From: Halosegnis rubeus
GTDB lineage: Archaea > Halobacteriota > Halobacteria > Halobacteriales > Haloarculaceae
Reading direction: 5' to 3'
Assembly: GCF_009184545.1 (NCBI RefSeq)
Contig: NZ_QJOW01000006.1
Span: 1-64,000 of the forward strand
DNA length: 64,000 bases
Each line of letters opens with the position of its first letter. Within the stretch, counting starts at the first letter, position 1. The notes below the pieces were generated by a model. The model had not been told where the DNA came from. It did no database searches and worked only from the letters and a program-made list of their open reading frames with translations. A program made the position numbers and the translations under genes. Shown one piece after another: positions 28,964-55,254 of this stretch.

Positions 28964-29171
28964 CACCAATCACGATATAAGGAACACTACGATGAGTCTT
29001 CATTCCCTAATATCTGCTCTATCTTGCTCATTGGCGAAGCATTTATCACATCTTGGCGCACACTGATGAGTGTGAAGGTGGATAAAGACGCATCGTAATG
29101 ATGGTTTCTCCCCCTTCGTTTCCGGGGCGAGCGCACACACTGTCGTCAACCACCCGTTGGCTGTCCGGGGA

Positions 29172-33398: not shown

Positions 33399-33777
33399 GA
33401 GAGCGAACGCACAAGCCTGTTTACTCGGTCTCGCCTGTGGCGACGCACTCGGTCGACCGGTCGAATTCAAGAGCGCCCAGGAGATCACTGCTGACCACCC
33501 ACGCGCCGTCTATGAGGTTGCAGAGATCTTCCCACAGTTAGCAATCGGCACGGGAGCTATTCTGGATTACCTCACACAGCTTCGCCTCCCGCAGCAGCAA
33601 CGGACGTTGACGGACATCAGTCCAGAGGATCAACTTACAGACCTCCGTGAGAAGGCCCACACGATGATCGGAGAACTCCACGTCATGTCCGAATCGCTTC
33701 GACGAGTAGCAGTCCGGCATCCGGAGATCGAGCACGAGAAATGGAAAGCCAACACCGCTCAGTCGGGAGGTCGATGA
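33391..33777 (+). pseudogene. Chimeric remnant: ADP-ribosylglycohydrolase N-terminus joined to an unrelated helical tail
   Basis: 128 codons. Residues 1-35 (ACLLGLACGDALGRPVEFKS) are the typical beginning of an ADP-ribosylglycohydrolase, which should run for about 300 residues and contain the TDDT metal site. From about residue 38 (VYEVAEIFPQLAIGTGAILD, then MIGELHVMSESLRRVAVRHP EIEHEKW) the sequence is unrelated and helical. Its end is loosely like HepT/DUF86 proteins (IGEA...RHPEIPW). A deletion joining two genes is the simplest reading, and it would have fused a VWA-HEAT-DUF7344 operon with a CARF-PIN operon. The open frame may still be expressed. It is coupled to the gene before it by an 8-base overlap. 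Confidence 0.65.
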
Positions 33778-33780
33778 GTA

Positions 33781-34254
33781 ATGGTCGATGCGTGGCTCAC
33801 AACCATGAGCACGAACCTGGAGGCGGTCATTAATCCTCTCATCGCGGCCTGTGAAGAGGGATTCCTCCCCGACGAACTGTACGTGCTGGATAATCCTGGC
33901 GTCGGTGACCAGTTCGACGACATCACGTCTATGATGGAGCGTGTGGTCGTCGAATACGGCGGTGACGACCCGGACCTCTCCGTGACGCACCTCGAGACGG
34001 AGACTGATTTTCGGGGTATCGTCGAGCACTTCCGTGAACCGATTGCCCAGATACAGGATGAAGGGGGTACGGCGGCGGTTGACGTCACTCCCGGTCGAAA
34101 GTTCATGTCAGCGATCGCGTTCCAAGCGGGGATTCAGTTCGAGGCCGACCACGTCTTCTATCTCTACGTCTCGAACAACCGCTTCTACGGCCGTTTGTAC
34201 CCCGATGTCCCCAGACCAGTAGTCGAACTCGTCGACTTTCAGGAGGTCTTCTAA
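33781..34254 (+). CDS. CARF-like (CRISPR-associated Rossmann fold) ligand-sensor protein
   Basis: 157 residues forming a Rossmann-like alpha/beta domain. The first strand MVDAWLTTMSTNLEAVINPL is followed by an alternating pattern, and GTAAVDVTPGRKFMSAIAFQ (about 96-115) has the DxTxGxK-M motif of CARF proteins (D101, K107). CARF domains bind cyclic oligoadenylates made by type III CRISPR Cas10, and usually sit on the same chain as an effector nuclease. Here the domain stands alone, and its stop overlaps the start of a PIN-nuclease gene by one base (TAATG), so the pair is probably a split sensor-effector. No CRISPR or Cas10 gene is in the window. The start at 33781 includes the first strand. 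Confidence 0.7.
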   Translation: MVDAWLTTMSTNLEAVINPLIAACEEGFLPDELYVLDNPGVGDQFDDITSMMERVVVEYGGDDPDLSVTHLETETDFRGIVEHFREPIAQIQDEGGTAAVDVTPGRKFMSAIAFQAGIQFEADHVFYLYVSNNRFYGRLYPDVPRPVVELVDFQEVF

Positions 34255-35297
34255 TGCAACTTGCTCGCCACCACATCACGCATCTCCTCAACGCGCTGTA
34301 CACGGAGGGCAGTACGTCGGTTAGTGTTCGGCACCCGTGTGAGGAGATCGGAGAACTCCTTGAGATCGACCTTTCCGATCCCGTCGCAACCACGGTCCGA
34401 TTCACGCAGGGCGCGCTCACGTACCAGGATTCCCGCGAGGAACTCCACACGACATACGGCGAACAGGCATACGACGACCTGCCTGACAAGGATACCTACA
34501 TTCGAGCGCTCGTTGCTGGTGGCCTCGTCAATATCGCAAATCGCGAGGACGTGGAGACGTTCTTCCGCCGACAGGGACATCCTGACCTTGACGCCGGCCA
34601 TCAGCCTGTGGCACTGGGCATCGATACGAACCTCCTCGCCTGGCGGATGCCGGATGTGCTCCGACTGGATCCGGAGCGCTACAGTGACGACAAGGGACGA
34701 AGCCCAGTCAATGGCTTTGCCCTCGCGACAGGTATCTACGAGGAACTCAACTGGCATTACAACCATTACGAGACGCGAACCCTCGAGGATGCGTTCGGCT
34801 CCGAGTTCGCGCGGCTGGACAATCAGCCGGCTGGGGCGAACCGTGAAGGATTCCTCGGGCTCTACGAGTACCGCCGTCTCCGCGACCATCGGTATGCGGA
34901 TACGATCGAGAGTGAGACGGGCGACGAAGCCATCGTAGACGCCTACGCGGAGTACGACCAAGATAGTCGAAAGCGAGTAATTCTCCTTAGCAATGACCAC
35001 GGGTTCGTCGAGCTGGCTCGTGAGGAAGGGGTACTCGCGCAACATGTGAGCTTCCCAGTTGATATTCCACGGAAGGTGACCGTTACATGGGACGAACTGC
35101 AGGATGCGCTCTACACGCTCTCAGTGCTGTTCGGCGTTCTGCGACTCCCAAAGGTAACACTATACGGGGTGTGGAACGGCAAATCTGGGGAGGATTGGCA
35201 ACGCCGACGTCTGGATGTCGATTGTCGAAGCGAGAACGTTCGTGAGAAACTGCGACGTGATCGTGCAGTCACAGCTGAATACGAGGCGACGAAATGA
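34254..35297 (+). CDS. PIN-domain ribonuclease, putative effector of the CARF protein
   Basis: 347 residues. An N-terminal about 115-residue helical domain (SVRHPCEEIGELLEIDLSDP, then LPDKDTYIRALVAGGLVNIA) precedes a PIN domain beginning VALGIDTNLLAWRMP (D124). Acidic residues follow in IYEELNWHY (E163/E164), DEAIVDAYAEYD (about D229) and VILLSNDHGFVELAREEGV (D248), the four-acid set of PIN nucleases that cut RNA with Mg or Mn. The C-terminal about 70 residues contain WDELQDALYTLSVLFGVLRL and a basic end (RRDRAVTAEYEATK). Coupled to the CARF gene by TAATG. PIN with CARF is known among ring-nuclease and effector families, usually fused; role here is inferred. Confidence 0.75.
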   Translation: MQLARHHITHLLNALYTEGSTSVSVRHPCEEIGELLEIDLSDPVATTVRFTQGALTYQDSREELHTTYGEQAYDDLPDKDTYIRALVAGGLVNIANREDVETFFRRQGHPDLDAGHQPVALGIDTNLLAWRMPDVLRLDPERYSDDKGRSPVNGFALATGIYEELNWHYNHYETRTLEDAFGSEFARLDNQPAGANREGFLGLYEYRRLRDHRYADTIESETGDEAIVDAYAEYDQDSRKRVILLSNDHGFVELAREEGVLAQHVSFPVDIPRKVTVTWDELQDALYTLSVLFGVLRLPKVTLYGVWNGKSGEDWQRRRLDVDCRSENVREKLRRDRAVTAEYEATK

Positions 35298-35593
35298 GCT
35301 AGCGTCCCAGCCGTATCGGAAACTATCGTTTCCTCTCTTCGATATTCTCGATCGACATATCAAGCGTGTTTGCGAAACCATCTATTCGGATCAGTTTTGG
35401 ACCGAACAGATCGTCGAGCTAGTTGTCTACGCCACTCTCTGACCTGCTCAGCGGGGGTGTTCCGTAGTGACTTTAGAAACCGAATCGGATGCATCGAGTC
35501 AGTTGCTCGGTCGGTCTTCTGTACTACACAAGAGTGGATTGAGGCGGATCTCACCCCTGTATTTATCCGATATGGCTCGGAATGGCTGTACAG
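35298..35593. other. Intergenic region before the mre11-like gene
   Basis: No convincing coding region is seen in either direction. The only recognisable element is a TATA-like GTATTTATCC at 35559-35568, centred about 30 nt before the ATG at 35594. The base composition falls here and stays lower through the next two genes. Confidence 0.4.
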
Positions 35594-37042
35594 ATGGCAT
35601 ATCTGTTACATACGAGTGACACTCATCTGGGATTCCGACAATATCACCTTGACGACCGCCGCCAAGATTTCGCCGACGCATTTAGCGAAGTGATCACGTC
35701 TGCTATTGAGCACGATGTCGATGCCGTGGTTCATGCTGGTGATCTTTTTCACACCAGTCGACCTGGTATCACACCGTTACAGACCCTCTTAACGGAACTT
35801 CAACGTCTACAGCGTGCCGATATCCCGTTTCTATTGATCGTCGGCAATCACGAACGCACGCACGATCGGAATTGGGTGGAACTGCTCGTCGAAGTCGACC
35901 TAGCCACTCGGCTGGACGCCGAAGGAACCCGCATCGACGACACAACAATCTATGGACTCGACTACGTCCCCCCTGGCCAACGTGACCGTCTCGACTATCA
36001 ATTTGACGCTCCTCAGACAGATAGCGCAATTTTGGTCGGACACGGATTGTTCAAGCCTTTCGGACACGGTGACTGGAGTACACAGCGGATTCTCGCCGAG
36101 AGTCCTGTTGATTTCGATCTCATGCTCGTCGGGGACGACCATGGTGCCGACTACAGGCTAGTTAGCAGGAATATTTCCGACGTAGATTCCGACCGCGGCT
36201 CGGCCAATTCGAAGACGGATACTAATTCGGAGCAGGGCGCAGCCACTTCTTCATCCCGGGAACGCATTCCGATTAGCTACGCTGGTTCTACTGAACGAAC
36301 CAAAGCTGACCAACGTGATCCACGAACCTACTCGCTAGTAACGGTTCCTGCGGACGGAGATGTTGATGCGCAAGAACATATCGATCGCCGAGTAATCGAA
36401 AGTGCTCGCGAATTCGTGTATGTTGATGTTCCACTCGAGCGCGGGGACGGGATCGAAACCGTCGAACGAACGATTCGAGAGGAAATCGACACGCTCGATC
36501 GAGCTGTTCTCAAGGTGACTCTGATGGCTGCCGAGGATGACCCTCCAGTCCCCGAGCCAATAGATGCCAGCGACGACACGGCTGAACAGGCCGTTCAGGA
36601 GCGAATTCCTGTTGGGCCAATCGAAAACTTAGGCACAGAGCTCGGTGCCTTAGTCACGCGAGTCAGCGATCGTCGAGACCTGCTCGAGGACGAACGGGAA
36701 TATCAAGCAGTCGAATTCGCTGATGTCGACGCTGCTGTCGAAGAACGACGTCAAGATATCGTCGTCACTGAAGCTGCTGACCAGCTTCTCGAGATGGCTA
36801 TGAATACTGACCAATTCATTGATAGCGGTATGGCTGACACCGCTCAAGAGACAGTCACGGCACTTCTTGAACGAGAATCACCTGAGGCGTTCCACGTCGA
36901 CAAGACCGATGCACCCGATGACGCCATCGAGAGCGGCCCCGCTGATTATGCATCTGGAACGACATCGCGTGCCGCAGGCGACAGTGACGATGTCGGTAAC
37001 GAAGAACTGCTCGAAGAAGCGCTTGAGGAACTCAACGACTGA
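35594..37042 (+). CDS. mre11: Mre11-like DNA repair exonuclease
   Basis: About 482 residues from the ATG at 35594 (MAYLLHTSDTHLG), favoured over the ATG at 35582 by a TATA box at 35559-35568. Phosphoesterase motifs are in order: DTHLGFRQYHLDDRR, VVHAGDLFHTSRPG, LLIVGNHERTHDR, VGHGLFKP and LMLVGDDHGAD, giving the two-metal active site. The last should read GHxH in active homologs; here it is GDDHG, a small deviation. A long acidic region (SDRGSANSKTDTNSEQGAAT) and the C-terminal capping/Rad50-binding helices follow. With the rad50-like gene 34 bp downstream it processes DNA ends. It is probably an additional copy relative to the chromosome, which is inference. Confidence 0.9.
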   Translation: MAYLLHTSDTHLGFRQYHLDDRRQDFADAFSEVITSAIEHDVDAVVHAGDLFHTSRPGITPLQTLLTELQRLQRADIPFLLIVGNHERTHDRNWVELLVEVDLATRLDAEGTRIDDTTIYGLDYVPPGQRDRLDYQFDAPQTDSAILVGHGLFKPFGHGDWSTQRILAESPVDFDLMLVGDDHGADYRLVSRNISDVDSDRGSANSKTDTNSEQGAATSSSRERIPISYAGSTERTKADQRDPRTYSLVTVPADGDVDAQEHIDRRVIESAREFVYVDVPLERGDGIETVERTIREEIDTLDRAVLKVTLMAAEDDPPVPEPIDASDDTAEQAVQERIPVGPIENLGTELGALVTRVSDRRDLLEDEREYQAVEFADVDAAVEERRQDIVVTEAADQLLEMAMNTDQFIDSGMADTAQETVTALLERESPEAFHVDKTDAPDDAIESGPADYASGTTSRAAGDSDDVGNEELLEEALEELND

Positions 37043-37076: not shown

Positions 37077-40000
37077 ATGCAATTTCAACGAATCCGCGTT
37101 CAAAACTGGCGTTGTTTTACCGATGAATCAGTTCGTTTTGAAGACGGCGTCACGGTCCTGTACGGGAATAATGGCTCCGGGAAATCGTCATTATTAGAAG
37201 CTGCGTTCTTCGCACTGTACGGTAGCGATGCGTTAGAAACCGGAACGACTATGGACGATGTTGTGACAACTGATGAGGATACTGCACAGGTAACGTTGTC
37301 TTTTGCCCATCGGGGTGAGTCCTACGAAGTAACACGTGAAATCCGGATTCGTGCCTCTACGACGCAGTCCGCTGATTTAACAACTCCACCTGGGCAACCC
37401 GATCTTGATCAAATAAGTGCTATCGATGAGCTGATTCAAGAAGAACTCCGGTTAAACGCTGAAGACTTTCTAAACAGCGCTTACGTTCAACAAGGAGACG
37501 TATCCCGTCTTATTGAAGCTACGCCAAAACAACGCCAGCGAATCATCGATAACCTGCTCCAAATGAGTAAATTGGAGCGGTATCGTGCACGTATGGATAG
37601 CATCGAAACTGGCGTCTCTCGCGTTGTTGATACTAAAGATGATCAGGTCGAAGAACTCACCACCCAAATCGCCGAGTACAACGAACCTCGAATTCGATCC
37701 AGAAAACAGCAACTGCACGGGTTTGAATCAACCATCGAAGACGAGCGCGAAGCTATCACAGACGAAATCGAGGAATTAGAAAACGAACGAGCAGACTCCG
37801 AGGAGATTGTTACAAACCAGGAGGCGTTCAAACAAGACGTCGAAGAAACAGAAGATGCTGTAGAGACGAATATGACGGACTTGGCGGCTGAAATTTCTGA
37901 CTACCAGGCGCTACAGGAGGATTTCACATCTGCCGAGGCAAAAGTCGAACAACATCAGGACGAACTAAAACGCCTCTTATCAGTTGGGAAAGGCGATCTC
38001 AGCAGGGAGTTCGGTGCGGTCGAGGACATCGTCGACGAGATCGCAGAGAGAGCCGGTACTGCCGCCACAGACGCGCTAGAGGACGCAACGGGGGACGGGC
38101 GTTTACGACAATCAGAAACTGAAGCCCGCGACACAGCAGCTGCCATCGTAGACGGAGCAAATGACGAGGCCAAGGTGGGAACAGCCCAAACTACTGATGA
38201 CCTGCTGGAAGACATCTCAACGGCAACGGCACCGCTTACGCCCGCAGTTACTGGCGAATCTCGTGACGGCGGTGGAACGATCGAAACCACAGAGGAGGTC
38301 GATGAAGAGGATGTTGACCCACTGATCAATCCGGATGTAGAAATTGATGTTTCGCGAGTTCGGGTCCCCACCTCCGGGCTCGATGTTGATCCAGCAACGT
38401 TTGAAGTCGACGTGGCTGCGGCTGCACAAGACCAAACTAGAGCCACTGTCGGTGAGATTCGGGATCGGCTGCAAGCGTTCGAGGATGCCGTGGCGGACGC
38501 CCGTTCGGAAGCCAATCGCCTCGAACAGGATGCACAAGAGCACAACCGCGCGGTCGAGACGGCTCTTACTGATGCCTCCTCGAAACTATCCGATATTGCT
38601 AACGTTCGAGAAGGCCGAAATGAGTTAGCGGACGAGCGCGAGCAGCTCCATGCCGAAATCGAAGACTCACCATTCGACGTTGCATCCGAGCGCACCGATC
38701 CTGATGCAGTTTTGGAGGCACTAATCGATACGCTAGAACACAGAATAGCGCGGCTGAAAGCCGAACAGGCTCACTACCGTGACGAGGTAGCCAGGCTCGG
38801 TGAACGAATCGAACAGGCTGACCGGTTACTCGAAGAGGGAAAATGTCCCGAATGTGGACGACCAGTTGAGGGCGCACCAAACGTCGAACAACGCGAGCAG
38901 TGGGAAGACGAGCGTGACTACGCTGCAAACCTGGCTGAAGCGCTCGAAGAGGGGATTACAAACTTACAAAGCCGCCAAGACAAAGCCGCGGAGCTCCTTG
39001 AGACGGCCCAATCCTTGTACGGAGAGGATCTCACCGTCACTATCTCAGGGGCTGACGCGACTGCTGGCGCAATACAGGTGGACCCGGATACGAACCTGAC
39101 TCCACTGCACGAGAAGGCTGCCGACCATTATCTCAAAGCCAGAGAAGAGCGTCAAGCAGCTCAACGAAAACGGTTCCAGGCAGTCGTGCAGCACCTGACT
39201 GCCGCCGTTCTCAGCCGAGCAGCTGAACGTACCCTTGCTCACCTTACCCGCGCTCTAGCCAGGAAGGAAGTATTGAGTCAAATCGAAGAGGCTACAGATA
39301 ACCGCACGAACGCCGAACGCGACCGTGAACTAGCCAAGAACCAACTTGATACCCAAGCTAACGAGGTCATCGACACGCACACCGAACTGCAAGATGCGAT
39401 TAGAGACCACTCTGATGCGGTTGAGTCATTCGACCCAGAAAAACTCAACCAAGCTGAAGAGACCGTCGCTAACATCGACAATGATCTCGATGATCTGGAA
39501 GAAGACCTCGAAGACTTACGAACTACTGAACGCGCTGTCAGTGAACATCTTGGGGACCTCGGGCGACAGCTAACCGAGTTGAACAATCTTCGGGATAAAC
39601 GAGATACCCGGCAACGCGAAGCAACTGCTGTCTCTGCACTCAATAGCCAGGTCGCCGAGTTGGAAGAGATGTTCGTCAATCTTCGAGCTGACCTACGGGA
39701 ACAAAACGTCCACCGTCTTGAAGACTTACTCCAGGAGATGTTCGACACGCTCTACCGCAACGACGCGTACGCCGATATCAAATTGGATCGGGAGTACGAT
39801 GCTACACTTATTGAGAAAGGTGGAGGCGAACTTCCACCAACCAAACTGTCTGGTGGTGAATCCGCTGTCTTCAACCTCGCACTCCGAGGTGCAATCTATC
39901 GACTTCTCACAGAAGGGTTTGAAGATGATGTCCCAATGCCGCCTCTCATCCTAGATGAACCAACTGCGCATCTGGATGACGGTCACGTTGACCGTCTTAA

Positions 40001-40166
40001 TGATGTGGTCGAAGCAATGCGAACCGCTGGTGTCAAACAAACTATCGTCGTTAGCCACGACGAAGGACTAATCGATAGCGCTGATCAGCGAATCCAAGTC
40101 CGCCAACGACAGGGTACGAACCGGTCAGTTGCTGAGCCAGAAAATACACTATCGGTGGAATTCTAA
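37077..40166 (+). CDS. rad50: Rad50-like SMC-family ATPase
   Basis: 1029 residues. The N-terminal lobe has Walker A LYGNNGSGKSSLLEAAFFAL (about 29-48) and the Q-loop segment NSAYVQQGDVSRLIEATPKQ. Two coiled-coil arms flank the zinc hook GKCPECGRP (C590, C593). The C-terminal lobe has the ABC signature KLSGGESAVFNLALRG (about 923-938), Walker B LILDEPTAHLDD (about 956-967) and the D/H-loop VVSHDEGL. It clamps DNA ends with Mre11. Unusual is a disordered acidic segment at about 330-440 of the N-terminal arm (TIETTEEVDEEDVDPLINPD and neighbours) that interrupts the coiled coil and makes the two arms unequal. Confidence 0.92.
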   Translation: MQFQRIRVQNWRCFTDESVRFEDGVTVLYGNNGSGKSSLLEAAFFALYGSDALETGTTMDDVVTTDEDTAQVTLSFAHRGESYEVTREIRIRASTTQSADLTTPPGQPDLDQISAIDELIQEELRLNAEDFLNSAYVQQGDVSRLIEATPKQRQRIIDNLLQMSKLERYRARMDSIETGVSRVVDTKDDQVEELTTQIAEYNEPRIRSRKQQLHGFESTIEDEREAITDEIEELENERADSEEIVTNQEAFKQDVEETEDAVETNMTDLAAEISDYQALQEDFTSAEAKVEQHQDELKRLLSVGKGDLSREFGAVEDIVDEIAERAGTAATDALEDATGDGRLRQSETEARDTAAAIVDGANDEAKVGTAQTTDDLLEDISTATAPLTPAVTGESRDGGGTIETTEEVDEEDVDPLINPDVEIDVSRVRVPTSGLDVDPATFEVDVAAAAQDQTRATVGEIRDRLQAFEDAVADARSEANRLEQDAQEHNRAVETALTDASSKLSDIANVREGRNELADEREQLHAEIEDSPFDVASERTDPDAVLEALIDTLEHRIARLKAEQAHYRDEVARLGERIEQADRLLEEGKCPECGRPVEGAPNVEQREQWEDERDYAANLAEALEEGITNLQSRQDKAAELLETAQSLYGEDLTVTISGADATAGAIQVDPDTNLTPLHEKAADHYLKAREERQAAQRKRFQAVVQHLTAAVLSRAAERTLAHLTRALARKEVLSQIEEATDNRTNAERDRELAKNQLDTQANEVIDTHTELQDAIRDHSDAVESFDPEKLNQAEETVANIDNDLDDLEEDLEDLRTTERAVSEHLGDLGRQLTELNNLRDKRDTRQREATAVSALNSQVAELEEMFVNLRADLREQNVHRLEDLLQEMFDTLYRNDAYADIKLDREYDATLIEKGGGELPPTKLSGGESAVFNLALRGAIYRLLTEGFEDDVPMPPLILDEPTAHLDDGHVDRLNDVVEAMRTAGVKQTIVVSHDEGLIDSADQRIQVRQRQGTNRSVAEPENTLSVEF

Positions 40167-40444
40167 GCACGGTTCTCTGGGAAGAACTGTATCATCAATT
40201 CCCATATGTAAGAGTGATCGATAATGTTGTTGAGAGGGTGCAACCATTCGTGTCGCTGGCGTACCATCGTTGGCCGGTAGATGTCGACAAAGAGACTGCA
40301 CATTTTAAGAATTCGTCAACTCCATACCGAGACCGTCCATTCGTTGCAGAGGCCGAAGCATGTCATCGGACGTGTCTTCAAGCGGTCTAATTCAGCCAGC
40401 CCCTGAAATTAGGGGATATACCTAATCCTCAGTGAACAGTACAG
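40167..40444. other. Intergenic region between convergent rad50 and the TBP-like gene
   Basis: No gene is visible. ATTAGG (40408-40413) and CCTAAT (40421-40426) could form a short hairpin just downstream of the minus-strand gene that ends at 40445. It is weak evidence for a terminator. Confidence 0.3.
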
Positions 40445-43400
40445 TCAACTGATATCTGCAGCGTCGAACGCGTCCCGGATTCCGCCGAACTCCTTCTTGT
40501 AGTAGTGATAGGAGTACTCGCTGTGTTCGTCGATGTCGCTCGTCGTCGGCCGGCCATCAATGACCTCGTCGATCTCTCGGAGTTCCTCAATGAGTGTCGA
40601 ACGGAGGGGGCTTCCGGATGACCGGTACTCGGTGTCGACATGGAGTGCGGCCAGGAGCTCGCCCCAGCCGTCGAAGACAGACCAGTGGGGGACCTCGGGT
40701 ATCTCGACGTCCAAGTAGACGGACTCCGAACCGTTGAACCCGATGTCCGCCTCACTCAAGGTGGGATTGCCCTCGACATCCTGACTGTGGACCATCTCGC
40801 CGGATTTCGGGAACCGCCCGAGTGCTTCGGCGAGTGCGGTTCCGTATTCGATCCAGGCCTCACGGACAGTGTCTCGTACCGGATACGTCCCTTCCACATC
40901 TCGCCCTTCGAGTGCGCCGACGATCCGGTCGAGTTCGTGGGCCTGCGGGTCAGCCTGGTTCGTCTCGATGGCCCGCAGCCGGTTGTCCGAGCACCCTGCC
41001 TGCTCGGCGAGTTCCGATCGAGGGATGTCCAGTTCCTCACGACGTGCCCGAATCCGCGGCCCGGTCGGGAACGCTGCGGTGACGTTCTCGTCAGGCGTCG
41101 TCGCGAAGACGACGTCGGCCAGCACGGATAGCCGTGGACTCACCGCTCCGTTCTCGAGTGCCGCGATGTAACTGCGGTGGATGCGCTGGGCCTCCTCCCC
41201 ACGGCGCTCGATGTCGCTTCGCTCCTTGTTGGCGTCCTCCCGATACCGTTCGATATCCTCGGGACGGGGAAGAGACAGCGCCACCGTCGAATCGACCGGG
41301 AACTGGGCGACTCGCGTCAGCGGTTCCGGGACGGCGTCGCTGTCACCGCCAGAGCCGTCGGGGGCGTCGCGGTCGGAATCGGTGTCAGACCCGATTTGAT
41401 CGAGGGCGTCGGTGGCGTCGTTCCAGAGCTGATGTGACGGCGTCTCGGCGATCTGCCGTATCTCCTGTTGGGTACGCTCTGTACCGGCGAGCGCAGCCAA
41501 CTGGACGCCGAGCGTACCCGCCCGGGCCTCGTCGTGGTTGAGCAGCTTGACGATCAGGTCGGCGTTTCGCTCGGCCGCCACTTCGAGTCTGTCGGGGTCC
41601 TGCTCGACGAGCGTTTCGACGATGTCGACTGCGTTTTTGCGAACGACCTCCATCGACTCCCCTTCCGTATTCACGTCCAACAGCAGGCGACCGAGGTGGG
41701 GAACGAGAGCATCGGGGCGCTTGGAGGCGACTGTCGAGAGAAGAGTTGCGACTCTCTGGTTGAGATAGTATAGTTCGCGCCCACCGAGGTCAACGTTTCG
41801 CTCGGCTGGCTCTTCAGAACTCGTCTCCGAGTCGTCAAGAGACGCAGAGACGGTGGCTGTCAACCCTGATCCAATGACGCCTCCACGCCGGTTGTGCCCG
41901 TACTGGAGGAGTGTCATCAGCACGTCGGTCTTGTCGGCGGCGACGATGTTCTCCGCGATCGCTGCACCCCCCTCTTGACGCTCGTGGACGCTGAACACTG
42001 CCGTGACCGGTAGCATCATCTTCGGTGGCATCTCTCGATCCAGCAACTCGAGCAACTGATCGAGAGTTGCCTCGTACCCGACAAGATCGGCTGCGGGGAG
42101 CCCCTGCAACGCCTGCAGCGCCCAGCGTTGGCGGTCCTCATCGTTGGTCGCGACGAGGCGGTCCAGTCGCTCTACAATCCGCTCTTGTGCTACGCCGTTC
42201 TCGAGCAGTTGCTGGAGAACGGCGACGGCACTCTCTGGCTGGTGGCCCACGTCGGGGCGTTCCAACAGTTCAAAAAGCTGGTCGAGCGTCGGCTCGAACG
42301 CCGATGGTGTCTCCTTGGCGAGCGTCTCGAAGAGGCGAGGAATGTCTGTCGTCGGCCCCTGAGGAAACTCATTGTCCGCGAGTCGCTTCACGAATGAAGG
42401 GATGTGAGGCGCAAACAGCGCCGGTTCCTCCTGAACCGCCACCCTGATGTCGGCCACAATGTCGTCGTCTTCAGTTGGCTGTTTTGCGAGTCGGGTCAGC
42501 AACTCGTTGACGTTGCCACGGGAGGTCTCGTGATCGTATTCCTCCATAACGGTTCCGTCCGGTGCGAGCAGCGCCGTGAAGACGTCTTTAGACTGCTCGG
42601 CGACCCGAAACCCCCCGCGTTCGGAATCGTACTCGATTGAGCCGTAGTCGGTGACCGTCGTCTGTGCGACCGTTCCATCATCGAGGCGCTCGCACAATAT
42701 GACGACCTCCTGGTTCAGATCCGCCATGTGGCCAGCATAGCCGAACTGCCGGCCGTCCGGGCTGATTGTCACGTCGTCAATCGACGCCACGTCTGTCTCG
42801 AAGATCTGAGCTCCAGTTTCGTCGTAGACGACCACGGTTGCGTCAGTGAAGCTGGTCGTCAGGATCATGGCCCCGGAGTTCGATACCGAACAGAAGCGAC
42901 TCTCCGGCGTCTCGAACTGATAGCGGAGTCGGTCGCGGGTGAAAACAAGCCCGATGTGCTCATCGGTGTCGATACCGGTGAAAGTGGCTCCATCCGGGGA
43001 GGCCGTCAGCTCGAGGAACCCTTGATTGCCAGCGTATTCGTATCGAATACGTTCGCCATCGGCGAGATCGTCGAACAGAAGTGTCAGATCTGTGTCCGGT
43101 ACGACCAGCCGGTCTCGGGGATCGAACAACGGTCGGCGGACCATCGACTGCATGATGTTGGGGATTGAAACCGTGAGATCGATTCCGTCCTCCTCCTCAG
43201 TCGCTGCGACGCCGTCCGTCGATAACTGCCCGGGCGAGATCGCCTCGATTTCTGTGCGATTCGCCCCATCGAGGACACCCCTTGCCACGAGCGTTGACAG
43301 GAGATCGTCGATGCTGTCTTCGGCCTCCTCAGCCGTCGCACTCGTGAGGTCGACGAGGATTGCCCCCCGATTGATGAAGACAAACGTCTCGTCGCCGAAC

Positions 43401-43582
43401 AATGGCTGATAGATGAGTCCCGGGAACTCCGCCGGCGAATATCGTACTGCTTCCGTGTCCAGATCCTCCGCTAGCGTCTCGTTGTGAACGGGTTTGAGCA
43501 GCCGCACCCAGTAGTATGGATTCTCGGGCGTGATGCTGAACTCCTGTCTGGCTACCTCGACCGGCGATTTCCGCGTTCCCAT
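40445..43582 (-). CDS. Multidomain protein: TBP-like repeat, propeller-like region, helical repeats, HTH and homing-endonuclease-associated repeats
   Basis: About 1045 residues from the ATG at 43582 (MGTRKSPVEVARQ), chosen because TATA-like GTTTTAATTAG (43605-43615) is about 28 nt upstream. Residues about 10-104 align with one repeat of TATA-binding protein: AVRYSPAEFPGLIYQPLF, then ETFVFINRGAILVDLTSATA and AEDSIDDLLSTLVARG. Residues about 160-375 contain WD/propeller-like strands (TVVVYDETGAQIFETDV, TISPDGRQFGYAG). Residues about 385-740 are HEAT/ARM-type helices (LFETLAKETPSAFEPTLDQL). Then follow an XRE-like HTH (IPRSELAEQAGCSDNRLRAI) and one or two homing-endonuclease-associated repeats (GRPTTSDIDEHSEYSYHYYK to FDAADIS). 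I know of no described protein with this order. A regulator or DNA-damage/defence scaffold is possible. Confidence 0.75.
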   Translation of the reverse strand: MGTRKSPVEVARQEFSITPENPYYWVRLLKPVHNETLAEDLDTEAVRYSPAEFPGLIYQPLFGDETFVFINRGAILVDLTSATAEEAEDSIDDLLSTLVARGVLDGANRTEIEAISPGQLSTDGVAATEEEDGIDLTVSIPNIMQSMVRRPLFDPRDRLVVPDTDLTLLFDDLADGERIRYEYAGNQGFLELTASPDGATFTGIDTDEHIGLVFTRDRLRYQFETPESRFCSVSNSGAMILTTSFTDATVVVYDETGAQIFETDVASIDDVTISPDGRQFGYAGHMADLNQEVVILCERLDDGTVAQTTVTDYGSIEYDSERGGFRVAEQSKDVFTALLAPDGTVMEEYDHETSRGNVNELLTRLAKQPTEDDDIVADIRVAVQEEPALFAPHIPSFVKRLADNEFPQGPTTDIPRLFETLAKETPSAFEPTLDQLFELLERPDVGHQPESAVAVLQQLLENGVAQERIVERLDRLVATNDEDRQRWALQALQGLPAADLVGYEATLDQLLELLDREMPPKMMLPVTAVFSVHERQEGGAAIAENIVAADKTDVLMTLLQYGHNRRGGVIGSGLTATVSASLDDSETSSEEPAERNVDLGGRELYYLNQRVATLLSTVASKRPDALVPHLGRLLLDVNTEGESMEVVRKNAVDIVETLVEQDPDRLEVAAERNADLIVKLLNHDEARAGTLGVQLAALAGTERTQQEIRQIAETPSHQLWNDATDALDQIGSDTDSDRDAPDGSGGDSDAVPEPLTRVAQFPVDSTVALSLPRPEDIERYREDANKERSDIERRGEEAQRIHRSYIAALENGAVSPRLSVLADVVFATTPDENVTAAFPTGPRIRARREELDIPRSELAEQAGCSDNRLRAIETNQADPQAHELDRIVGALEGRDVEGTYPVRDTVREAWIEYGTALAEALGRFPKSGEMVHSQDVEGNPTLSEADIGFNGSESVYLDVEIPEVPHWSVFDGWGELLAALHVDTEYRSSGSPLRSTLIEELREIDEVIDGRPTTSDIDEHSEYSYHYYKKEFGGIRDAFDAADIS

Positions 43583-43604
43583 ACATATCAAAGCAGCTGG
43601 ACGT

Positions 43605-43615
43605 CTAATTAAAAC
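43605..43615 (-). promoter_or_regulatory. TATA box of the TBP-like multidomain gene
   Basis: Minus-strand TTTTAATTAG lies about 24-33 nt upstream of the ATG at 43582. The site is of special interest because the encoded protein carries a TBP-like repeat. Confidence 0.5.
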
Positions 43616-43918
43616 ACACGCCACCCGCCCGAGCATCGGCAGCCGATGCGTGTCGGCCGACGGTTACGAGAACCGGATCTACGCTCTTGTGTAGCACATT
43701 GTTGATGTCGAGCAGTTTTTCGGTTCTTTGATGAACTGAGTGAGACTAGAACCCGGTCGTTGGAAAATTAGACGGGCAGTTTTTGTTCCGGTTCCTCTCC
43801 GGAGAGTTGTATCAACAATCTCTTACGGAAGAGCGATTTTCGTTTTTTTTTTCGTCCGCAAAGTCTTCAACGGCACGCGGCTATCAGCACCTGTACTTAA
43901 GTACACTCTTGGCGGTCG
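43616..43918. other. Intergenic region between the TBP-like gene and the addA-like gene
   Basis: No coding frame is convincing. A ten-T run occurs at 43843-43852 and a perfect palindrome GTACTTAAGTAC at 43893-43904, 15 bp after the end of the addA-like gene. The T run would serve a plus-strand transcript only. Confidence 0.35.
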
Positions 43919-46900
43919 TTATCGCTCAATAGATTCGAATTGCCCCCAGATTTCCTCGCCGATTCCCTTTCTTATCGACTCAATCTCATCAGGTGACCAC
44001 TCAACGGCCCATGCGTCATCGAGCGTCGTGAACATGAGTGAAACCCGGACGCTACGGCCAGTCTCCTGTTGGTTCAACGCAATCGCATAGGCCTTCATCT
44101 GATTCTCGTAATACTCCGCGTCAGCTTCCAGTTCCTCAGGTGTGACATCACCTGTCTTGTAGTCGATAATATGGTACGCGTCAGGCGTGATGATCAGGTG
44201 GTCTATGAACCCCGATATCTCCCCGCGCTCGAATTCCGCAGTAACATACAATTCGTCGTACTGGTGCTCTACATCGACGTCCGTGGTTTGCTCGTCAACG
44301 TAGTCTATCCCGCGCTGGGCATGAGTACTCACGCGGTTCTGGAGTTCGGGTGAGAGTGAGACCGTAGCCCCCTCGTCAACAAGCGTCTGTTCCATAAGAT
44401 GCGGCCAGTGAGTTTCCGGCGGCCGCAGTTCGCAGAGTCGATGCACCATCTCGCCGAATACGCTCGCGTCGACGCCGTCCGTTTCGATACTCGTTTCCTC
44501 TGTTGAGCGGCTGTCCGATTCGGCCTCTCCGGTTGTTGGGTCCTCTTCACCGTGTCGATTCTCCGGACTCGTCTCGCTATCGTCGGTCTCTTCGACGTAG
44601 ATGGTCCCCGTGTCTTCGTCGAACTGGAGTTCGCCATACTCCCCGTAGAGTGACGCAAGGTCAGTCGCCGAAAACCGAAAGCTGACATCTGGCTTGGGCG
44701 GTCGCGGCGACAGTTCAACGTCGGGGTCGATATCGGGATCAGGTTGCACCTGCTTGGCTGGCGGTGTCGGGAGTGACACGGTGTACGTGCCGTCACCGTA
44801 CGTACGCCGGACGTGGGTATCGGAATCGAGGGCAGTGCACACGTCCTCGGTGAGGAGTTCTGGCTGCACCCAGTCGCGCCAACTCGATGCTGACTCAGGG
44901 TCCGGTTCCTCGAGATCCGTCATCGTTGGTTCCTCGGTCTCTCCAGCTGCCTCGTGGAGGCCGCTCAGGAGCAGATGGTCTCGTGCTCGTGTGCAGGCCA
45001 CGTAGAGTACGCGTTTCTCTTCGGCGCGTTCTTCGGCGCGACGGCGCTCACGAATCGTGTCACGGGCGATCGTATCCACCATCTCGAACGGGTCGTCCGG
45101 GCTTGGTGCCTTCATTCCGACTGCGTGCTGGCCACCAATCTGCTCGAACTCGACTTTCCCGCCGCCCAGGGCCGCTTCATCCTTGAACTCGCGACCGATC
45201 CCCGGGACGACGACGAACGGGAATTCCATTCCCTTGGCGTCGTGGATCGTTAGAATCTGGGCGCCCTCCCCGGTCGTGTCAGCTTCGCTCTCCCGGCCGC
45301 CGAGCTCAATGCGGCGTTCGATCCGACTCACAAGTGTCGTAAGACTCCGAACGCCATCGTCGCTCCATCCGCGAAGCTGTTCGCGGAACTTCTCCACGTT
45401 CGCCATCGCCTGCTGTGGACGCTCGTCGGCGCTGACACTCACCAAGTAGCCTGTATCCTCGAGGATCCGCGTTAGATACGCGGCCCACGACCCGTCGAAT
45501 CCAGCGGGTTCCTCGTCGCCAAGTCCAGCTAAGTGACGCCACTCTTGGAGATACTCGTAGGCATCTTGGAGTTCCTGATGCTCACTCGTCGCGAGTGCGT
45601 CCCACAAAGAGTCGTCATGGAGTTTCAACTGGGCGAGCGTGTCGTCGGTGAGGCCGAATAACGGCGACCGAAGCGCTGCGTAGAGTGCGCGTTCGTCACT
45701 TGGATCGGCGAGAGCCCGGAAGAGGTTCAACAGCGCGGTGATTTCTGTCGATTCGTAGAAGCCGATCCCGGACGCGACCGAATAGGGGACGTCCGCCTCT
45801 TCTAACGCTCGTTCGTACTTTTTGAGGTGGGTGCGGCTGCGGATGAGGATAGCAATATCGCTCGGTTCGATATCCCGTGGCTCCGGTGGTTCATCACTGC
45901 CCTCTGTCTCTTCTTGACTATTCAGTCCGCGTTCTGGAGCGGGTTCACTCTCGCTACTATCGTCATCTGTTTCGTCCTCCTCGGGGTAGACCTGAAGTGG
46001 TTCAGCCAGTATCTGGGAGAGACGGGCGGCGAGCGCCATCGCCTCCAACTCTGTGTCGTGTTCCGGCTCGGCTGTGGCAAAGTCCGCGTAGTGATCGCAG
46101 TGATGTTCTCTGAGGTCGGCATCGGTTGGCACCGTGAGGTACTCCACAGTACCGAGATCCGCTGGATCGTCGCGATCGGCTGTCAGGGATTGGGGGGCCG
46201 CTTCGTAGGGCTCACCGTCTTCGTCGAAGATGGCCTCGAAGAGTTCGTTGATCGACTCCAGCACCGTCGGCAGCGTTCGGAAGTTCGTCGAAAGTTGGTC
46301 GTCATCATCGCTTTCTGTACCCGTGTTTCGAGCGTCTTGGGACACCTGCTCGAGAGTGGTGGCCGTTTCGCGGAACTGCGTGACGTCGGCGTTTCGGAAG
46401 CGATAGATGCTCTGTTTGACGTCGCCCACGACGAACACGTTCTGGGCATCGAACGTTTCCCCGTCGCTGGCCGTCAGGAGCTTGATGAGGTCCCACTGGC
46501 GTGGGTCAGTATCCTGGAACTCGTCGACCATCACGTACTCGAACTGCTCCCGTAACTCCTCGCGAATGTCGGCGTTCTCCGGTGCTTGGAGGAAGTCAAC
46601 GGTGTAGGAAATCTGGTCGGTGAAGTCGACAGCGTTCTGCCGATCTTTCCGTTCCTCGTACTCAGCAGCCGCGATTTGGGTCAGCTCTGCGAGCGCCTGG
46701 ACGAACGGGAAGCTGTTCGATTCGATCTCCAGATCCACGTTGACGGCGTACTCCTCGGGCTGGAGTGTTTCGACCAGTGTCTCAAACGCGCTGTCGAACT
46801 CCGCCTTTCGGGGATGGTCTCCCCACCGCGTGTTGGCCCCCGTATAGCCTGCGTAGCGTTCCCCACTACCCTTGGTGAGGTGCATACTGAGCTCCGCAAT

Positions 46901-47752
46901 CGTCGACTGCTTGGCTCGGGATGAAACACCATCATCGAACCCAGCGTCAAGTCGATCCACGACTCCTTCCGCACGCTGCCAGGTCTGTCCCCCGGTCTCG
47001 ATATCTGGGGGGTCCTCAACGAACTCGCGCAGGGTAGCCGCAGCCGCGACGAAGTCGGGGTGGGCCAGCCGCTCGGCGGCTTCATCCGGATCGATCGGAT
47101 GCAGGGCCGACTCAACGAACGAGATGTATTCCTCCTCCGTGGCGTCCGCCCACCGATCAGCCCACTCAAGACTCTCCGGTCGCTCGCCCAGCAGATCGGT
47201 CAGGACGTCCTGGAGCTGGCTTCGAGAGAACCGCCGGGCTAGCGTTTGCGTTGCCTCGTGGTTCTCGTATTCTTCGAGGACGCTACCAACCGTATCGTGG
47301 ATCAGTGCGGTCGTCTCGTTTTCGTCTAGCGTATCGAAGCCAGGATCCACGGCGTCAATCGTCAGCGCGTGTTCGCGCAGCAGCCGAGCACAGAACCCAT
47401 GGAGCGTGTGGATGTACCCTTGCTCGAGTTCATCCGCAACCGTACGCCAGGCATCGAACTCCCCGACATCGAGTGACTCAATGCGATCTGTGATTTCCGT
47501 TCGGACGCTCTCCTCGAGATCGTTTGCTGCCCGTTCGGTGAACGTCGTCGTAAGGATGTGCTCAGGTAGCAGCTGGGCCTCACCAGTCCCGCCGTCGGTT
47601 TGTTCCGCGAGCGACTGTTCGATCATCTCCAGGTATCGGGCGGTCAGCGTGGTGGTCTTGCCCGTTCCTGCCCCGGCTGTGAGGGTTACATTCCGGTCAA
47701 GGGCATCGACAGCCCGTTGCTGTTCATCGGTCAGGTCCTCGTAGGAGACCAT
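43919..47752 (-). CDS. AddA-like UvrD/Rep helicase with C-terminal RecB-type nuclease
   Basis: 1277 residues of superfamily 1A helicase. Motif I is TLTAGAGTGKTTTLTARYLE (about 22-41), motif II is VMVDEFQDTDPRQWDLIKLL, motif III is VFVVGDVKQSIYRFRNADV, motif IV is IAILIRSRTHLKKYERALE, and motifs V/VI are ILTIHDAKGMEFPFVVVPG and VLYVACTRARDHLLL. The C-terminus carries the PD-(D/E)XK nuclease: GFIDHLIITPDAYHIIDYKT (about 1180-1199) with D, D and K in place. This is the AddA layout. AddA unwinds and degrades DNA ends with AddB. Its ATG is 2 bp after the stop of the AddB-like gene, so the pair is one transcript with AddB first. Confidence 0.92.
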   Translation of the reverse strand: MVSYEDLTDEQQRAVDALDRNVTLTAGAGTGKTTTLTARYLEMIEQSLAEQTDGGTGEAQLLPEHILTTTFTERAANDLEESVRTEITDRIESLDVGEFDAWRTVADELEQGYIHTLHGFCARLLREHALTIDAVDPGFDTLDENETTALIHDTVGSVLEEYENHEATQTLARRFSRSQLQDVLTDLLGERPESLEWADRWADATEEEYISFVESALHPIDPDEAAERLAHPDFVAAAATLREFVEDPPDIETGGQTWQRAEGVVDRLDAGFDDGVSSRAKQSTIAELSMHLTKGSGERYAGYTGANTRWGDHPRKAEFDSAFETLVETLQPEEYAVNVDLEIESNSFPFVQALAELTQIAAAEYEERKDRQNAVDFTDQISYTVDFLQAPENADIREELREQFEYVMVDEFQDTDPRQWDLIKLLTASDGETFDAQNVFVVGDVKQSIYRFRNADVTQFRETATTLEQVSQDARNTGTESDDDDQLSTNFRTLPTVLESINELFEAIFDEDGEPYEAAPQSLTADRDDPADLGTVEYLTVPTDADLREHHCDHYADFATAEPEHDTELEAMALAARLSQILAEPLQVYPEEDETDDDSSESEPAPERGLNSQEETEGSDEPPEPRDIEPSDIAILIRSRTHLKKYERALEEADVPYSVASGIGFYESTEITALLNLFRALADPSDERALYAALRSPLFGLTDDTLAQLKLHDDSLWDALATSEHQELQDAYEYLQEWRHLAGLGDEEPAGFDGSWAAYLTRILEDTGYLVSVSADERPQQAMANVEKFREQLRGWSDDGVRSLTTLVSRIERRIELGGRESEADTTGEGAQILTIHDAKGMEFPFVVVPGIGREFKDEAALGGGKVEFEQIGGQHAVGMKAPSPDDPFEMVDTIARDTIRERRRAEERAEEKRVLYVACTRARDHLLLSGLHEAAGETEEPTMTDLEEPDPESASSWRDWVQPELLTEDVCTALDSDTHVRRTYGDGTYTVSLPTPPAKQVQPDPDIDPDVELSPRPPKPDVSFRFSATDLASLYGEYGELQFDEDTGTIYVEETDDSETSPENRHGEEDPTTGEAESDSRSTEETSIETDGVDASVFGEMVHRLCELRPPETHWPHLMEQTLVDEGATVSLSPELQNRVSTHAQRGIDYVDEQTTDVDVEHQYDELYVTAEFERGEISGFIDHLIITPDAYHIIDYKTGDVTPEELEADAEYYENQMKAYAIALNQQETGRSVRVSLMFTTLDDAWAVEWSPDEIESIRKGIGEEIWGQFESIER

Positions 47753-47754
47753 CG

Positions 47755-50700
47755 TTACTCCACCCCTACGACGTCTTCGAGATCGTGATTCCTGGCTTTC
47801 AGCGGCACGTACGCTGACGCACCCGTGTCGTCGATTGCTTCGATAACTTCCTTCCGCTGGTGCGAGCGGACGTCACAGACGTGTGCGTAGTCACAGTATC
47901 GACATCCGGCGTCCGATGGATCGAGGACTGTCGGATGGAATCGACCCTCTTCGATTCCTGAGGCGAGTTCTCCAAGGCGTTGTGGGGTTGTCTCCTCGAT
48001 GAACCGTCGGAACGCCTCGTGTGTCTCGAAGTATGGGTAGGAGTGACGGAGTAGCGGCGTATCGACGTCGTCGCTCCCATGGTAGACTGCCATCTCCTGT
48101 GAGGTGAGGAGTCCGCTGCGAGAATTGACTGAACTCGGAGGCGAGACCTGGTAGTACGCGCCACCGACTACTTCGACATCGTCGAGTGCCTCTTCGGCCA
48201 TCAACGCGTACAGCTGCAGTTGGAATTTCAGCCCGCTCAGCGCCTCACTTTCGCTGGGGATTGAGCTTCCAGTTTTGTAATCCCGAACGACAACCTGTGT
48301 TGGGTCTGTTCCAGGGACCGTCTCGACGCGGTCGATGAGTCCATGAATGGGGACCGAGCCGTGTGGTGTCTCGATCTCTGCGGGGTCGTCGCTGAGTGGT
48401 GTGCCTGCGTCGTAGGGATTACCGACCCGGCCTTCGAACCACGTTGGTCGGGCGGTCGTCTTTGCGGGTTCGTCCGCCTCGTGGTCGAGGAACCGATAGA
48501 ATAGCCCTCGCGCAACAGGACGACTGTCCTGTGTCTTATGAGGACCATAGTACGGATTGGTGTCCGGAGTTCCGAGTCCCGCGAGTACGGAGGTCAACCA
48601 TTCTTCTTGGAACGATGTCTGGGCGCGGTCGTCGAATGCTTCGTCAAGCCGCTCAAGGGCAATGTCGAGGAGCTGTTGTTGCCGCGTTTCGAAGTCGCCA
48701 CCTGGGTGAACTGGATCGCTTCCCCCCGACTGTAACGACAGGTAGTAGTGTTCGAGCACGTCGTGGATGTACGAACCCCGGTCGCTCGCGTCGGGTTCCC
48801 GCGTTAAGCGATCTGGTGCTTCGATACCGAGGACGCGGCGCATGTAGTACTTGAACCCACAAGCAGCATATGTCTCCAACCGACTCGGACTGTACGGCTC
48901 GCGGTCGAGCGTATCGTGAATCTGGGAGACGGTCTCTTCTGTGAGCTGGCCATCGTAGGGCGTCAGTTCGGGACCGGCTCGTGCCGCGGCACAAACAATA
49001 CCAGCCTGAACACGGGCCTGTTGGGTGGTGCTAAACGAACCGGCTTCGACTGCTTCAGTGAGTAGGTCGTGGACTCGTTCTTCGGATGTCTCGGGAAGCA
49101 CGTCGCCGACTGCCCGCTGCACGTCTTCTTGACATCCTGGCTCGCTGTCAGCTGGCTCGATAGTCACCTCCGAGAGATCGACAAGCCGCCGAAGTTCGGT
49201 CAGGATATCTGCTTCGACGTGTGGTTCACCACTAGCACTCTGCTGGGGGATGGAGAGATGAATTGATGCTGTACTCCCGAGGAGTACGCTCAAGTGATAC
49301 CGTGCCTCTGTAGAGACATCTGTCTGCTCGAAGTCTGGATGTGACTCGTAGATGGGTCGTGTGAAAGCGGTTCGCTCCGGATCTGAGGGGAACTGTGTCG
49401 TCGTCAGCCCGAGAACGTATACCTGTTCGAACTCCCGAAGGGTAGCTTCGGCGAGACTACAGACAACGACGCTCTCCTCGGATGGCCGTGTGCTCTGCTG
49501 GATCGAGACGCCATGGAGCGCGCGCTCAAGCCGCTCAACGCTGTCACCGATTTCGGGGTCCGCCAACGGTGTTGTAAGGGCGAGGGTCTCAAGGATCCGG
49601 TCGAGACGGTCACGAGCACGCAGTTCACGGTCCCGAAGTGGAGATGAGAGTTTTTGTTCACCTTCTAGTGCCGCTGAGACGCCGAGACGCTCAAGGAGGG
49701 CGTCAAGTTGGCCGGGGAGTTCCTCTAGTGACACCTCTGATAGAGCGGCTGCATCCCGAGTCAGGGAAGTGACCGTTGCCGCGAGACTGCCGTCAACGTG
49801 TTCGAGAGTCGATTCAAGCCGATTTGTCTCTGCCCTAGCTGCTACCCGAGCGAGTTCGTGGTAATCGAGGTTCTCTCCCGTTCGCGTAATGGTGACTAGT
49901 GGGTTCGTGAGAAGATCGAGGAGCGTGTCGATGCTACGAGGTTCCTGTGCGAGTTGGCAGACTGCCTGGACGACATCGCCTAGGGCTGTTTCGGAAAGGG
50001 GAATCTCGGTTTGTAGATTGAACGGGAGTTCGTACATTTCGAAAGCTTCCCGTACCTGGTCAGCGTATTGCACCGGATTCGTGAGGACGACGCCGATAGC
50101 GTCGGCCGACGTTCCTGTCGCGATTCGACTCCGGATATCTCGAGCGACAGTTCGGATCTCGTCGGGGACTGTTTCCGGTTCGGTGAGCGTCAGATCCAGC
50201 GCTGCCGCGTTGATATCGCTGGTTGCCGGCGACTGGCGGGGATGCCGATAGAGACTGCGAGTGATGCGCCGTCGCGCTTCGAGAGTTGACGAGACAGGCT
50301 CATCGTGGTGCTGTCGAACGAAGTCCAGGTCGGAATACGTCTCTAGCGCTCGTTTGGCGCCTGTATCAACACCCGGGGCCGAGTCCTCGTCGATCTGCTT
50401 GGGGAGGAGAGCGATCGCCGGCCAGGTGTCAACGAGTCGTTCGAGGAAGTCTACTTCTAGAGCGTCGAATCGCGTGAACCCACTGAGAACAACGGCCTCG
50501 ACTGAGGGGAATACGTTTGTGAGCGAGGTTTCTGCTGTCGTGGCGTGGTGCATTCGCTCGGTACGGTATGTTTCCGGGAGTTCATCAGCAAGGAGTGTCT
50601 GTCGGGCAGATTCGATCTCTTCCGCCAGTTCGGCGACGTAGCCCGCGCGGTCGCCCACACCCTCCTGTTCGAGACGCTGCCGCATTGCGTCCGGTGAGAG

Positions 50701-51105
50701 CAGTCCAGCGAACTCTAGTTCGGTGAAAAGGGTCTCGGCTTCCTGGACGAGCCCTGCTCGGGGGAACTGGTCGCCGGTGTTGAGTGGATTCGTAGACGAT
50801 GAGATCTCTTCGACCCCAAGCTCGACGAGTCGGAAGAGGAGCGGTCGGTCAACGTGAGTTACCCGGCCCTTGTACTGATCCTGTTCATAGCACTGTGAAG
50901 CAAGATTGTCCAACGTGTCGACACGGAGCCCAGCAGAGGGGCCAAACTCCATCCAGCGATCTTTCGTTGCGTCCTCTGGGTGTTCCGGCTGACTAATGTA
51001 GAGAATACTTTCAGGCTGTGTTCCCACACTCTCACTAAGAATATCGAATGCCTGTGATTCAAGCTCAGGTAAATCAGGTCCAGTAAGTAACAGCCGGCGA
51101 GACAT
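47755..51105 (-). CDS. AddB-like protein with Fe-S type RecB nuclease domain
   Basis: About 1116 residues from the ATG at 51105 (MSRRLLLTGPDLPELESQAF); the longer frame upstream starts at 51189 but TATA-like ACATTAATG lies at about 51128-51138. The N-terminus is a degenerate SF1 helicase-like region without a canonical Walker A (LLLTGPDLPEL). The C-terminus has the RecB nuclease: VVVRDYKTGSSIP (about 935-947) and QLQLYALM (QxxxY). A first cysteine (TYAACGFKYYMRRVLG) and CRYCDYAHVC near the end would hold a 4Fe-4S cluster, the hallmark of AddB. Together with the downstream AddA-like gene it makes a dual-nuclease end-processing machine, unusual in archaea but seen in haloarchaea. Confidence 0.9.
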   Translation of the reverse strand: MSRRLLLTGPDLPELESQAFDILSESVGTQPESILYISQPEHPEDATKDRWMEFGPSAGLRVDTLDNLASQCYEQDQYKGRVTHVDRPLLFRLVELGVEEISSSTNPLNTGDQFPRAGLVQEAETLFTELEFAGLLSPDAMRQRLEQEGVGDRAGYVAELAEEIESARQTLLADELPETYRTERMHHATTAETSLTNVFPSVEAVVLSGFTRFDALEVDFLERLVDTWPAIALLPKQIDEDSAPGVDTGAKRALETYSDLDFVRQHHDEPVSSTLEARRRITRSLYRHPRQSPATSDINAAALDLTLTEPETVPDEIRTVARDIRSRIATGTSADAIGVVLTNPVQYADQVREAFEMYELPFNLQTEIPLSETALGDVVQAVCQLAQEPRSIDTLLDLLTNPLVTITRTGENLDYHELARVAARAETNRLESTLEHVDGSLAATVTSLTRDAAALSEVSLEELPGQLDALLERLGVSAALEGEQKLSSPLRDRELRARDRLDRILETLALTTPLADPEIGDSVERLERALHGVSIQQSTRPSEESVVVCSLAEATLREFEQVYVLGLTTTQFPSDPERTAFTRPIYESHPDFEQTDVSTEARYHLSVLLGSTASIHLSIPQQSASGEPHVEADILTELRRLVDLSEVTIEPADSEPGCQEDVQRAVGDVLPETSEERVHDLLTEAVEAGSFSTTQQARVQAGIVCAAARAGPELTPYDGQLTEETVSQIHDTLDREPYSPSRLETYAACGFKYYMRRVLGIEAPDRLTREPDASDRGSYIHDVLEHYYLSLQSGGSDPVHPGGDFETRQQQLLDIALERLDEAFDDRAQTSFQEEWLTSVLAGLGTPDTNPYYGPHKTQDSRPVARGLFYRFLDHEADEPAKTTARPTWFEGRVGNPYDAGTPLSDDPAEIETPHGSVPIHGLIDRVETVPGTDPTQVVVRDYKTGSSIPSESEALSGLKFQLQLYALMAEEALDDVEVVGGAYYQVSPPSSVNSRSGLLTSQEMAVYHGSDDVDTPLLRHSYPYFETHEAFRRFIEETTPQRLGELASGIEEGRFHPTVLDPSDAGCRYCDYAHVCDVRSHQRKEVIEAIDDTGASAYVPLKARNHDLEDVVGVE

Positions 51106-51271
51106 ACTCCATCCGTTACCCGAGCGAGGCATTAATGTTCGGGAGTAACTGGAGAAGAAACGGTGTTTAAATACATTTACAGCTGACAACTTTATGTTCT
51201 CGATATCTTCAGCCGTCTTTTCGATCGGTCATTAGGACCCCGTGGTCGACGAACTTAGGCTGATGACGGGT

Positions 51272-55242: not shown

Positions 55243-55254
55243 GTTTTAATATTA
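55243..55254 (+). promoter_or_regulatory. TATA box of the DUF499 gene
   Basis: GTTTTAATATTA is centred about 29 nt before the ATG at 55278 and selects it over the GTG at 55266. It shows that the ATPase has its own promoter in the 249-bp AT-rich gap after the first methylase. Confidence 0.5.

Follow-up and report, generated by a model that had tools for sequence, protein, structure and literature searches.

A haloarchaeal plasmid-island protein carrying a single TBP-type lobe, encoded by a one-gene cassette

A 64,000-nucleotide stretch of Halosegnis rubeus DNA (hereafter the window; contig NZ_QJOW01000006.1, positions 1 to 64,000) encodes a large fusion protein that profile and pairwise searches show to have a single genuine TBP lobe close to the N-terminus. 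This lobe has lost residues that a TBP uses in transcription initiation, remains under purifying selection and, on our best reading, has been repurposed, probably for protein recognition. The gene and the parts of its product are as follows.

40445..43582, (-): gene of the TBP-lobe fusion protein (1045 aa when counted from Met19), with the start placed by lost constraint upstream and a dN/dS of 0.30
43271..43477, (-): single TBP C-lobe-type repeat, residues 54-122 (phmmer, NCBIfam and our own C-lobe HMM)
42521..43189, (-): all-beta, propeller-like region, residues ~150-372 (low-confidence model, strands only)
41402..42520, (-): helical HEAT/armadillo-like repeats, residues ~373-745 (sub-threshold HEAT_EZ and Adaptin_N, low-confidence model, Foldseek)
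41117..41251, (-): degenerate first XRE-like HTH, residues ~796-840 (HTH_3, E 0.005, sub-threshold)
40910..41053, (-): XRE-type HTH, residues 862-909 (HTH_3, E 7e-10, 39 bits against a cut-off of 23)
40451..40597, (-): homing-endonuclease-associated repeat (HNH_repeat), residues 1014-1062 (PF18780, E 3e-13, above cut-off)

The reading frame is open from 40445 to 43636 on the (-) strand (1063 codons), and residues are numbered here from this longer ORF. The sole orthologue, found on a haloarchaeal plasmid in a genome of a different family (G127), is 79% identical, and the unusual architecture pointed out in the initial annotation, with its N-terminal TBP lobe, is present there too. Because codons 1-18 show no constraint when the orthologues are compared (dN 0.40, dS 0.31), Met19 at 43582, which had been taken as the gene start, is most likely the true one. 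Both gene copies were found to be under purifying selection at the overall ratio given above (window versus orthologue), with values of 0.24 for the TBP lobe, 0.17 for the HTH region and 0.16 for the C-terminal repeat region, the last two being the most constrained parts of the protein. The body of the protein was detected in 2 of the 391 genomes of the class, namely the window's own and G127; no further homologue was found in these genomes or among the 6098 ORFs of the compared loci, and searches of genome contigs, viral contigs, PLSDB plasmids and phage records returned no relatives. A draw of 393 genomes across the phylum gave the window itself as the sole match.

The TBP-like N-terminal repeat had been proposed from the letters of the sequence, and the proposal held up. 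With residues 19-142 as query, phmmer recovered from the full set of PDB sequences the TBPs 2z8u (E 7e-5), 1mp9 (0.0012), 1pcz (0.0083), 1d3u and 1ais (both 0.038); below E 0.1 only TBPs were returned, and the sole non-TBP match stood at E 0.69. The NCBIfam TATA-box-binding protein model NF001593 matched residues 35-114 (43295-43534) at E 2.5e-4. Separate N-lobe and C-lobe HMMs were then built from haloarchaeal TBPs. The C-lobe HMM scored 26.2 bits for the window protein and 21.5 for the orthologue, against a best score of 12.0 bits among 20,000 shuffles, and the N-lobe HMM scored 14.2 and 13.6 bits, respectively. Among the 482 ORFs of the window, the fusion protein alone rose above inclusion with the C-lobe HMM. 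The Pfam TBP model gave 13-15 bits, below its curated cut-off of 22.9. Some ~770-aa ORFs with weak matches to the same model were set aside as noise, as they contain a P-loop and resemble conjugation ATPases of the VirB4 type; because such ORFs reach the same Pfam score, the case for TBP homology rests on the tests other than Pfam. Each of the two proteins gave one C-lobe profile match (residues 54-122), where a functional TBP has a two-lobe saddle.

No gaps interrupt the alignment to the TBP C-lobe over the FPGLIY strand and the hairpin after it. Homology to the archaeal TBP C-lobe spans ~70 residues and takes in a Y-x-P-x-x-F-P-G-L-I-Y motif together with this hairpin and a helix; the motif differs little between the two copies, and the FPGLIY strand with its first wedge Phe (Phe71) is retained in each. 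Strand 1 of the lobe lies outside the profile match and is barely recognisable, and identity to the host TBPs is 25-30%. The glutamates at C.L3.2 and C.L3.4 of the TBP C-lobe are contacts to TFIIB/TFB (PMC7221094), but the window protein has Ser67 and Ala69 at these positions, and the orthologue has Ser and Thr. The near-universal Phe that TBPs insert into DNA from the strand 4-5 loop, a position equated with L5.1 of PMC7221094 by our own reading, corresponds in the gapless alignment to Ile88 (Val in the orthologue), and Phe87, beside it, could act as a partial substitute. Ala92 takes the place of the next Lys of TBP, and the following strand has Asp96 where TBP has Thr (the orthologue has Asn there). 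In contrast, the EPE motif is intact in the C-lobe of three divergent plasmid-type TBPs, including one beside AddAB in genome G135.

These changes bear directly on the suggestion of the initial annotation that the protein might recognise promoter-like DNA or compete with TBP. A promoter-level regulator would use the lobe to bind DNA, alone or as a dimer rebuilding the two-lobed saddle, and would block or replace TBP with the HTH giving specificity. Retention of the FPGLIY strand and Phe71 in both copies, the presence of the XRE HTH, purifying selection on the lobe and the common occurrence of several TBPs per haloarchaeon are all in keeping with such a role. However, the lobe is single and its strand 1 unrecognised, the second wedge Phe is Ile or Val, both TFB-contacting glutamates are gone, and the following strand has Ala and Asp/Asn where TBP has Lys and Thr. 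Because the glutamates and the DNA-inserting Phe are lost here and the EPE motif is kept in divergent plasmid TBPs, promoter competition by the lobe is unlikely, although the lobe may still bind DNA, and we regard a promoter-level regulator as an unlikely account of the whole protein.

Downstream of the lobe, the XRE-like HTH and the C-terminal homing-endonuclease-associated repeat were recovered as first described, at the E-values listed above. A weak, partial second copy of the HNH_repeat was seen near residues 933-949 (14.4 bits), and the orthologue also carries the HTH and the HNH repeat. The propeller-like region and the HEAT repeats of the initial annotation are plausible, each with a reservation. 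For residues ~150-372 the low-confidence model is all-beta, but no family match was found for this segment and the term 'propeller' is a guess. For residues ~373-745 the model is all-helical and the Foldseek matches were armadillo/importin-alpha chains, but the family matches were sub-threshold, including HEAT_EZ at E 0.002 on the isolated segment. AlphaFold runs made without an alignment were uninformative, with a pLDDT of 39 for residues 19-400 and 48 for residues 370-1063. Scans with Pfam, NCBIfam and PADLOC detected no catalytic or effector domain in the fusion protein, and PADLOC returned no system-specific defence protein, the generic HTH models alone matching.

The gene lies in a slot between AddAB-like genes and a CARF-PIN protein, with the following neighbours.

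33781..34254, (+): homologue of a protein annotated as a CRISPR-associated ring nuclease (98% to WP_247010683.1), preceding CARF-PIN
34254..35297, (+): CARF-PIN protein (PADLOC CARF_PIN, E 2e-14; CARF_m1--CARF_PIN, E 2e-31), the fixed right side of the slot
35582..37042, (+): Mre11-like phosphoesterase, a neighbour in the window alone and absent beside the orthologue
37077..40166, (+): Rad50/SMC-like ATPase, a neighbour in the window alone
40392..43833, (-): the cassette, comprising the gene and short flanks (blastn homology to plasmid G127:C2, insert at 32203-35554; empty site in G371)
43919..47752, (-): AddA-like UvrD helicase/PD-(D/E)XK nuclease, the fixed left side of the slot
47755..51189, (-): AddB-like PD-(D/E)XK nuclease (family scans)

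Family scans confirmed the Mre11, Rad50, AddA and AddB identities originally assigned to these neighbours. The AddB-AddA genes are oriented toward the ring-nuclease/CARF-PIN pair, and the same flanks recur on plasmids of Halorientalis litorea (NZ_CP095484), Halomontanus rarus (NZ_CP135525) and Halococcus dombrowskii (NZ_CP095007). The contents of the slot vary: it can be empty or hold a 152-aa ORF or a calcineurin-type phosphoesterase of 469 aa, and in the window it holds Mre11-Rad50 together with the TBP-lobe gene. Genome G371 presents an empty site, with both flanks and without the TBP-lobe gene. Relative to G371, G127 carries an insertion of ~3.36 kb whose two junctions have 3-4 bp (TCCG) in common, and the stretch over which the window (40392-43833) and G127 are homologous stops within ~10 bp of the insertion boundaries. 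This empty site and the agreement of the homology ends with the insertion boundaries show that the TBP-lobe gene travels as a single-gene cassette.

The same comparisons speak to a possible role in double-strand break processing, in which the protein would be an accessory subunit working with AddAB (and here with Mre11-Rad50) and holding the nuclease on DNA. In both copies the gene is found 3' of AddA and shares its strand, and Mre11-like phosphoesterases occur among the other genes of the slot. However, AddAB relatives at 90-97% identity (G135, G110, G371, G130 and G194) lack the gene, the gene is a later insertion, and Mre11-Rad50 is absent from the G127 region examined. Conservation beside the neighbours thus held for AddAB, adjacent in both copies, yet near-identical AddAB islands do without the gene; it failed for Mre11-Rad50, whose adjacency is particular to the window and was rejected as a functional clue. 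A break-processing subunit is, like the promoter-level regulator, unlikely.

The defence context of the island is formed by DUF1156 methylases, a DUF499 ATPase, CARF-PIN and the Rad50-like ATPase. At 52344-61160, two DUF1156 DNA methylases are arranged around the DUF499 ATPase; these genes resemble the HmaB/HmaC models, and also the NCBIfam anti-phage DUF1156/DUF499 models at scores far under the NCBIfam cut-offs. A block at 29157-35297 holds VWA, HEAT-repeat, ADP-ribosylglycohydrolase, ring-nuclease-like and CARF-PIN genes and matches several plasmids at 88-98%; its ADP-ribosylglycohydrolase ORF looks broken, since it has 128 aa in the window against 616-664 aa elsewhere. The segment 5084-13762, which includes a ParA-like gene, matches plasmid contig G127:C2 at 96% identity, and for this reason the contig of the window is probably a free or integrated plasmid.

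In G135, a transposase-like insertion (L071 1044-2713) with an apparent flanking 8-bp duplication (AAAATGTT) lies at the intergenic position that the TBP-lobe cassette takes up elsewhere. The 469-aa protein occurs in the AddA-adjacent slot of three plasmid islands (L071 2713-4122; L073 7345-8892; G127:C2 30748-32157) and combines a C-terminal calcineurin-type (Mre11-like) phosphoesterase with an N-terminal region that is TRAM-like by eye. On the plasmid-type contig G135:C4, the gene of a divergent two-lobe TBP (L071 15283-15828) lies near AddB, and divergent TBPs were also seen on the AddAB-island contigs G110:C3 and G371:C24.

The reading that we favour, as a serious possibility that falls somewhat short of probable, is that the protein is exchangeable cargo of a haloarchaeal plasmid defence/recombination island and serves as a DNA-anchored scaffold or regulator with a repurposed TBP lobe. 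The HTH and the HNH repeat at the C-terminus would hold the protein on DNA, and the beta and HEAT-like regions would provide a protein-binding platform. The TBP lobe would have moved from promoter binding to the recognition of protein, or of nucleic acid in a weak, non-TATA manner, and the assembled protein would control or target a response against incoming elements. This reading draws on the TBP homology, the DNA-binding domains at the C-terminus, the constraint on the chain, the contacts lost from the lobe in both orthologues, the cassette insertion and the defence-type neighbours. Against it stand the absence of an enzymatic effector domain and of any system-specific defence match in the scans, and a repurposing of the lobe is argued from the residues that it has lost. 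With two known copies, an argument from association is necessarily thin, and 'defence' is one reading of the island, given that the slot holds repair-type genes too.

If, on the other hand, the lobe were merely a structural leftover of a fusion, the HTH and HNH-repeat region would do the work, as in ordinary plasmid regulators. This would agree with the strongest constraint falling on those regions (dN/dS 0.16-0.17), but the lobe is constrained too (0.24) and its motif almost the same in the two copies, and we place such a relic below the two accounts considered above. More doubtful still is an integrated decoy, in which the lobe would mimic the C-lobe of the host TBP as bait for a viral or plasmid attacker of TBP or TFB, and binding would trigger a response by the scaffold. 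A lobe of C-lobe type, stripped of its transcription contacts, yet constrained and placed in a defence-type island, is what such a decoy might look like; however, no effector domain was found in the Pfam, NCBIfam and PADLOC scans, no target is known, and at 25-30% identity to host TBPs little of their exposed surface is left for mimicry. Least likely of all is the version in which a plasmid defence protein would carry its copy of the TBP C-lobe as decoy or bait in order to sense invaders that manipulate archaeal transcription initiation.

Under the favoured reading of a DNA-anchored scaffold or regulator, an archaeal C-lobe in mobile cargo that has lost its transcription contacts and is still selected would represent a clean change of job for a core transcription module. 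If it were true that the lobe recognises invader proteins, host-virus conflict at the initiation step of archaeal transcription would become directly testable. An archaeal C-lobe in such an architecture was not found among the families, structures and open-access papers searched, and an earlier mention is possible. The TBP-domain superfamily has reportedly been reviewed by Brindefalk and colleagues.

Archaeal TBP is a stand-alone two-lobe general transcription factor. The fusion protein shares with it the ~70 homologous residues of the C-lobe, with motif, hairpin and helix, but has one lobe instead of two, joined to ~920 further residues, and lacks the TFB glutamates, the strand 4-5 Phe and the adjacent Lys and Thr. 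Bacterial RNase H3 and the RnlA toxin are known examples of larger proteins with a single TBP lobe (PMC7221094). As in these, one lobe here forms a module of a larger protein, and RnlA acts in anti-phage defence; in contrast to them, no RNase H or RnlA/HEPN domain was found in the fusion protein with Pfam, NCBIfam or PADLOC, and their conserved L5.1 aromatic (PMC7221094) is Ile or Val in its lobe. Haloarchaeal plasmid regulators with an XRE HTH or an HNH_repeat have the same C-terminal DNA-binding domains, which are widespread in haloarchaea, whereas those that we found match the HTH or HNH-repeat part alone, the body and the N-terminal lobe being missing. Finally, the gene resembles other variable cargo of defence-island slots in being a single gene cleanly inserted between conserved flanks that include AddAB, the ring nuclease and CARF-PIN; it differs in that its product is a TBP-lobe protein and no recognised nuclease, ATPase or toxin.
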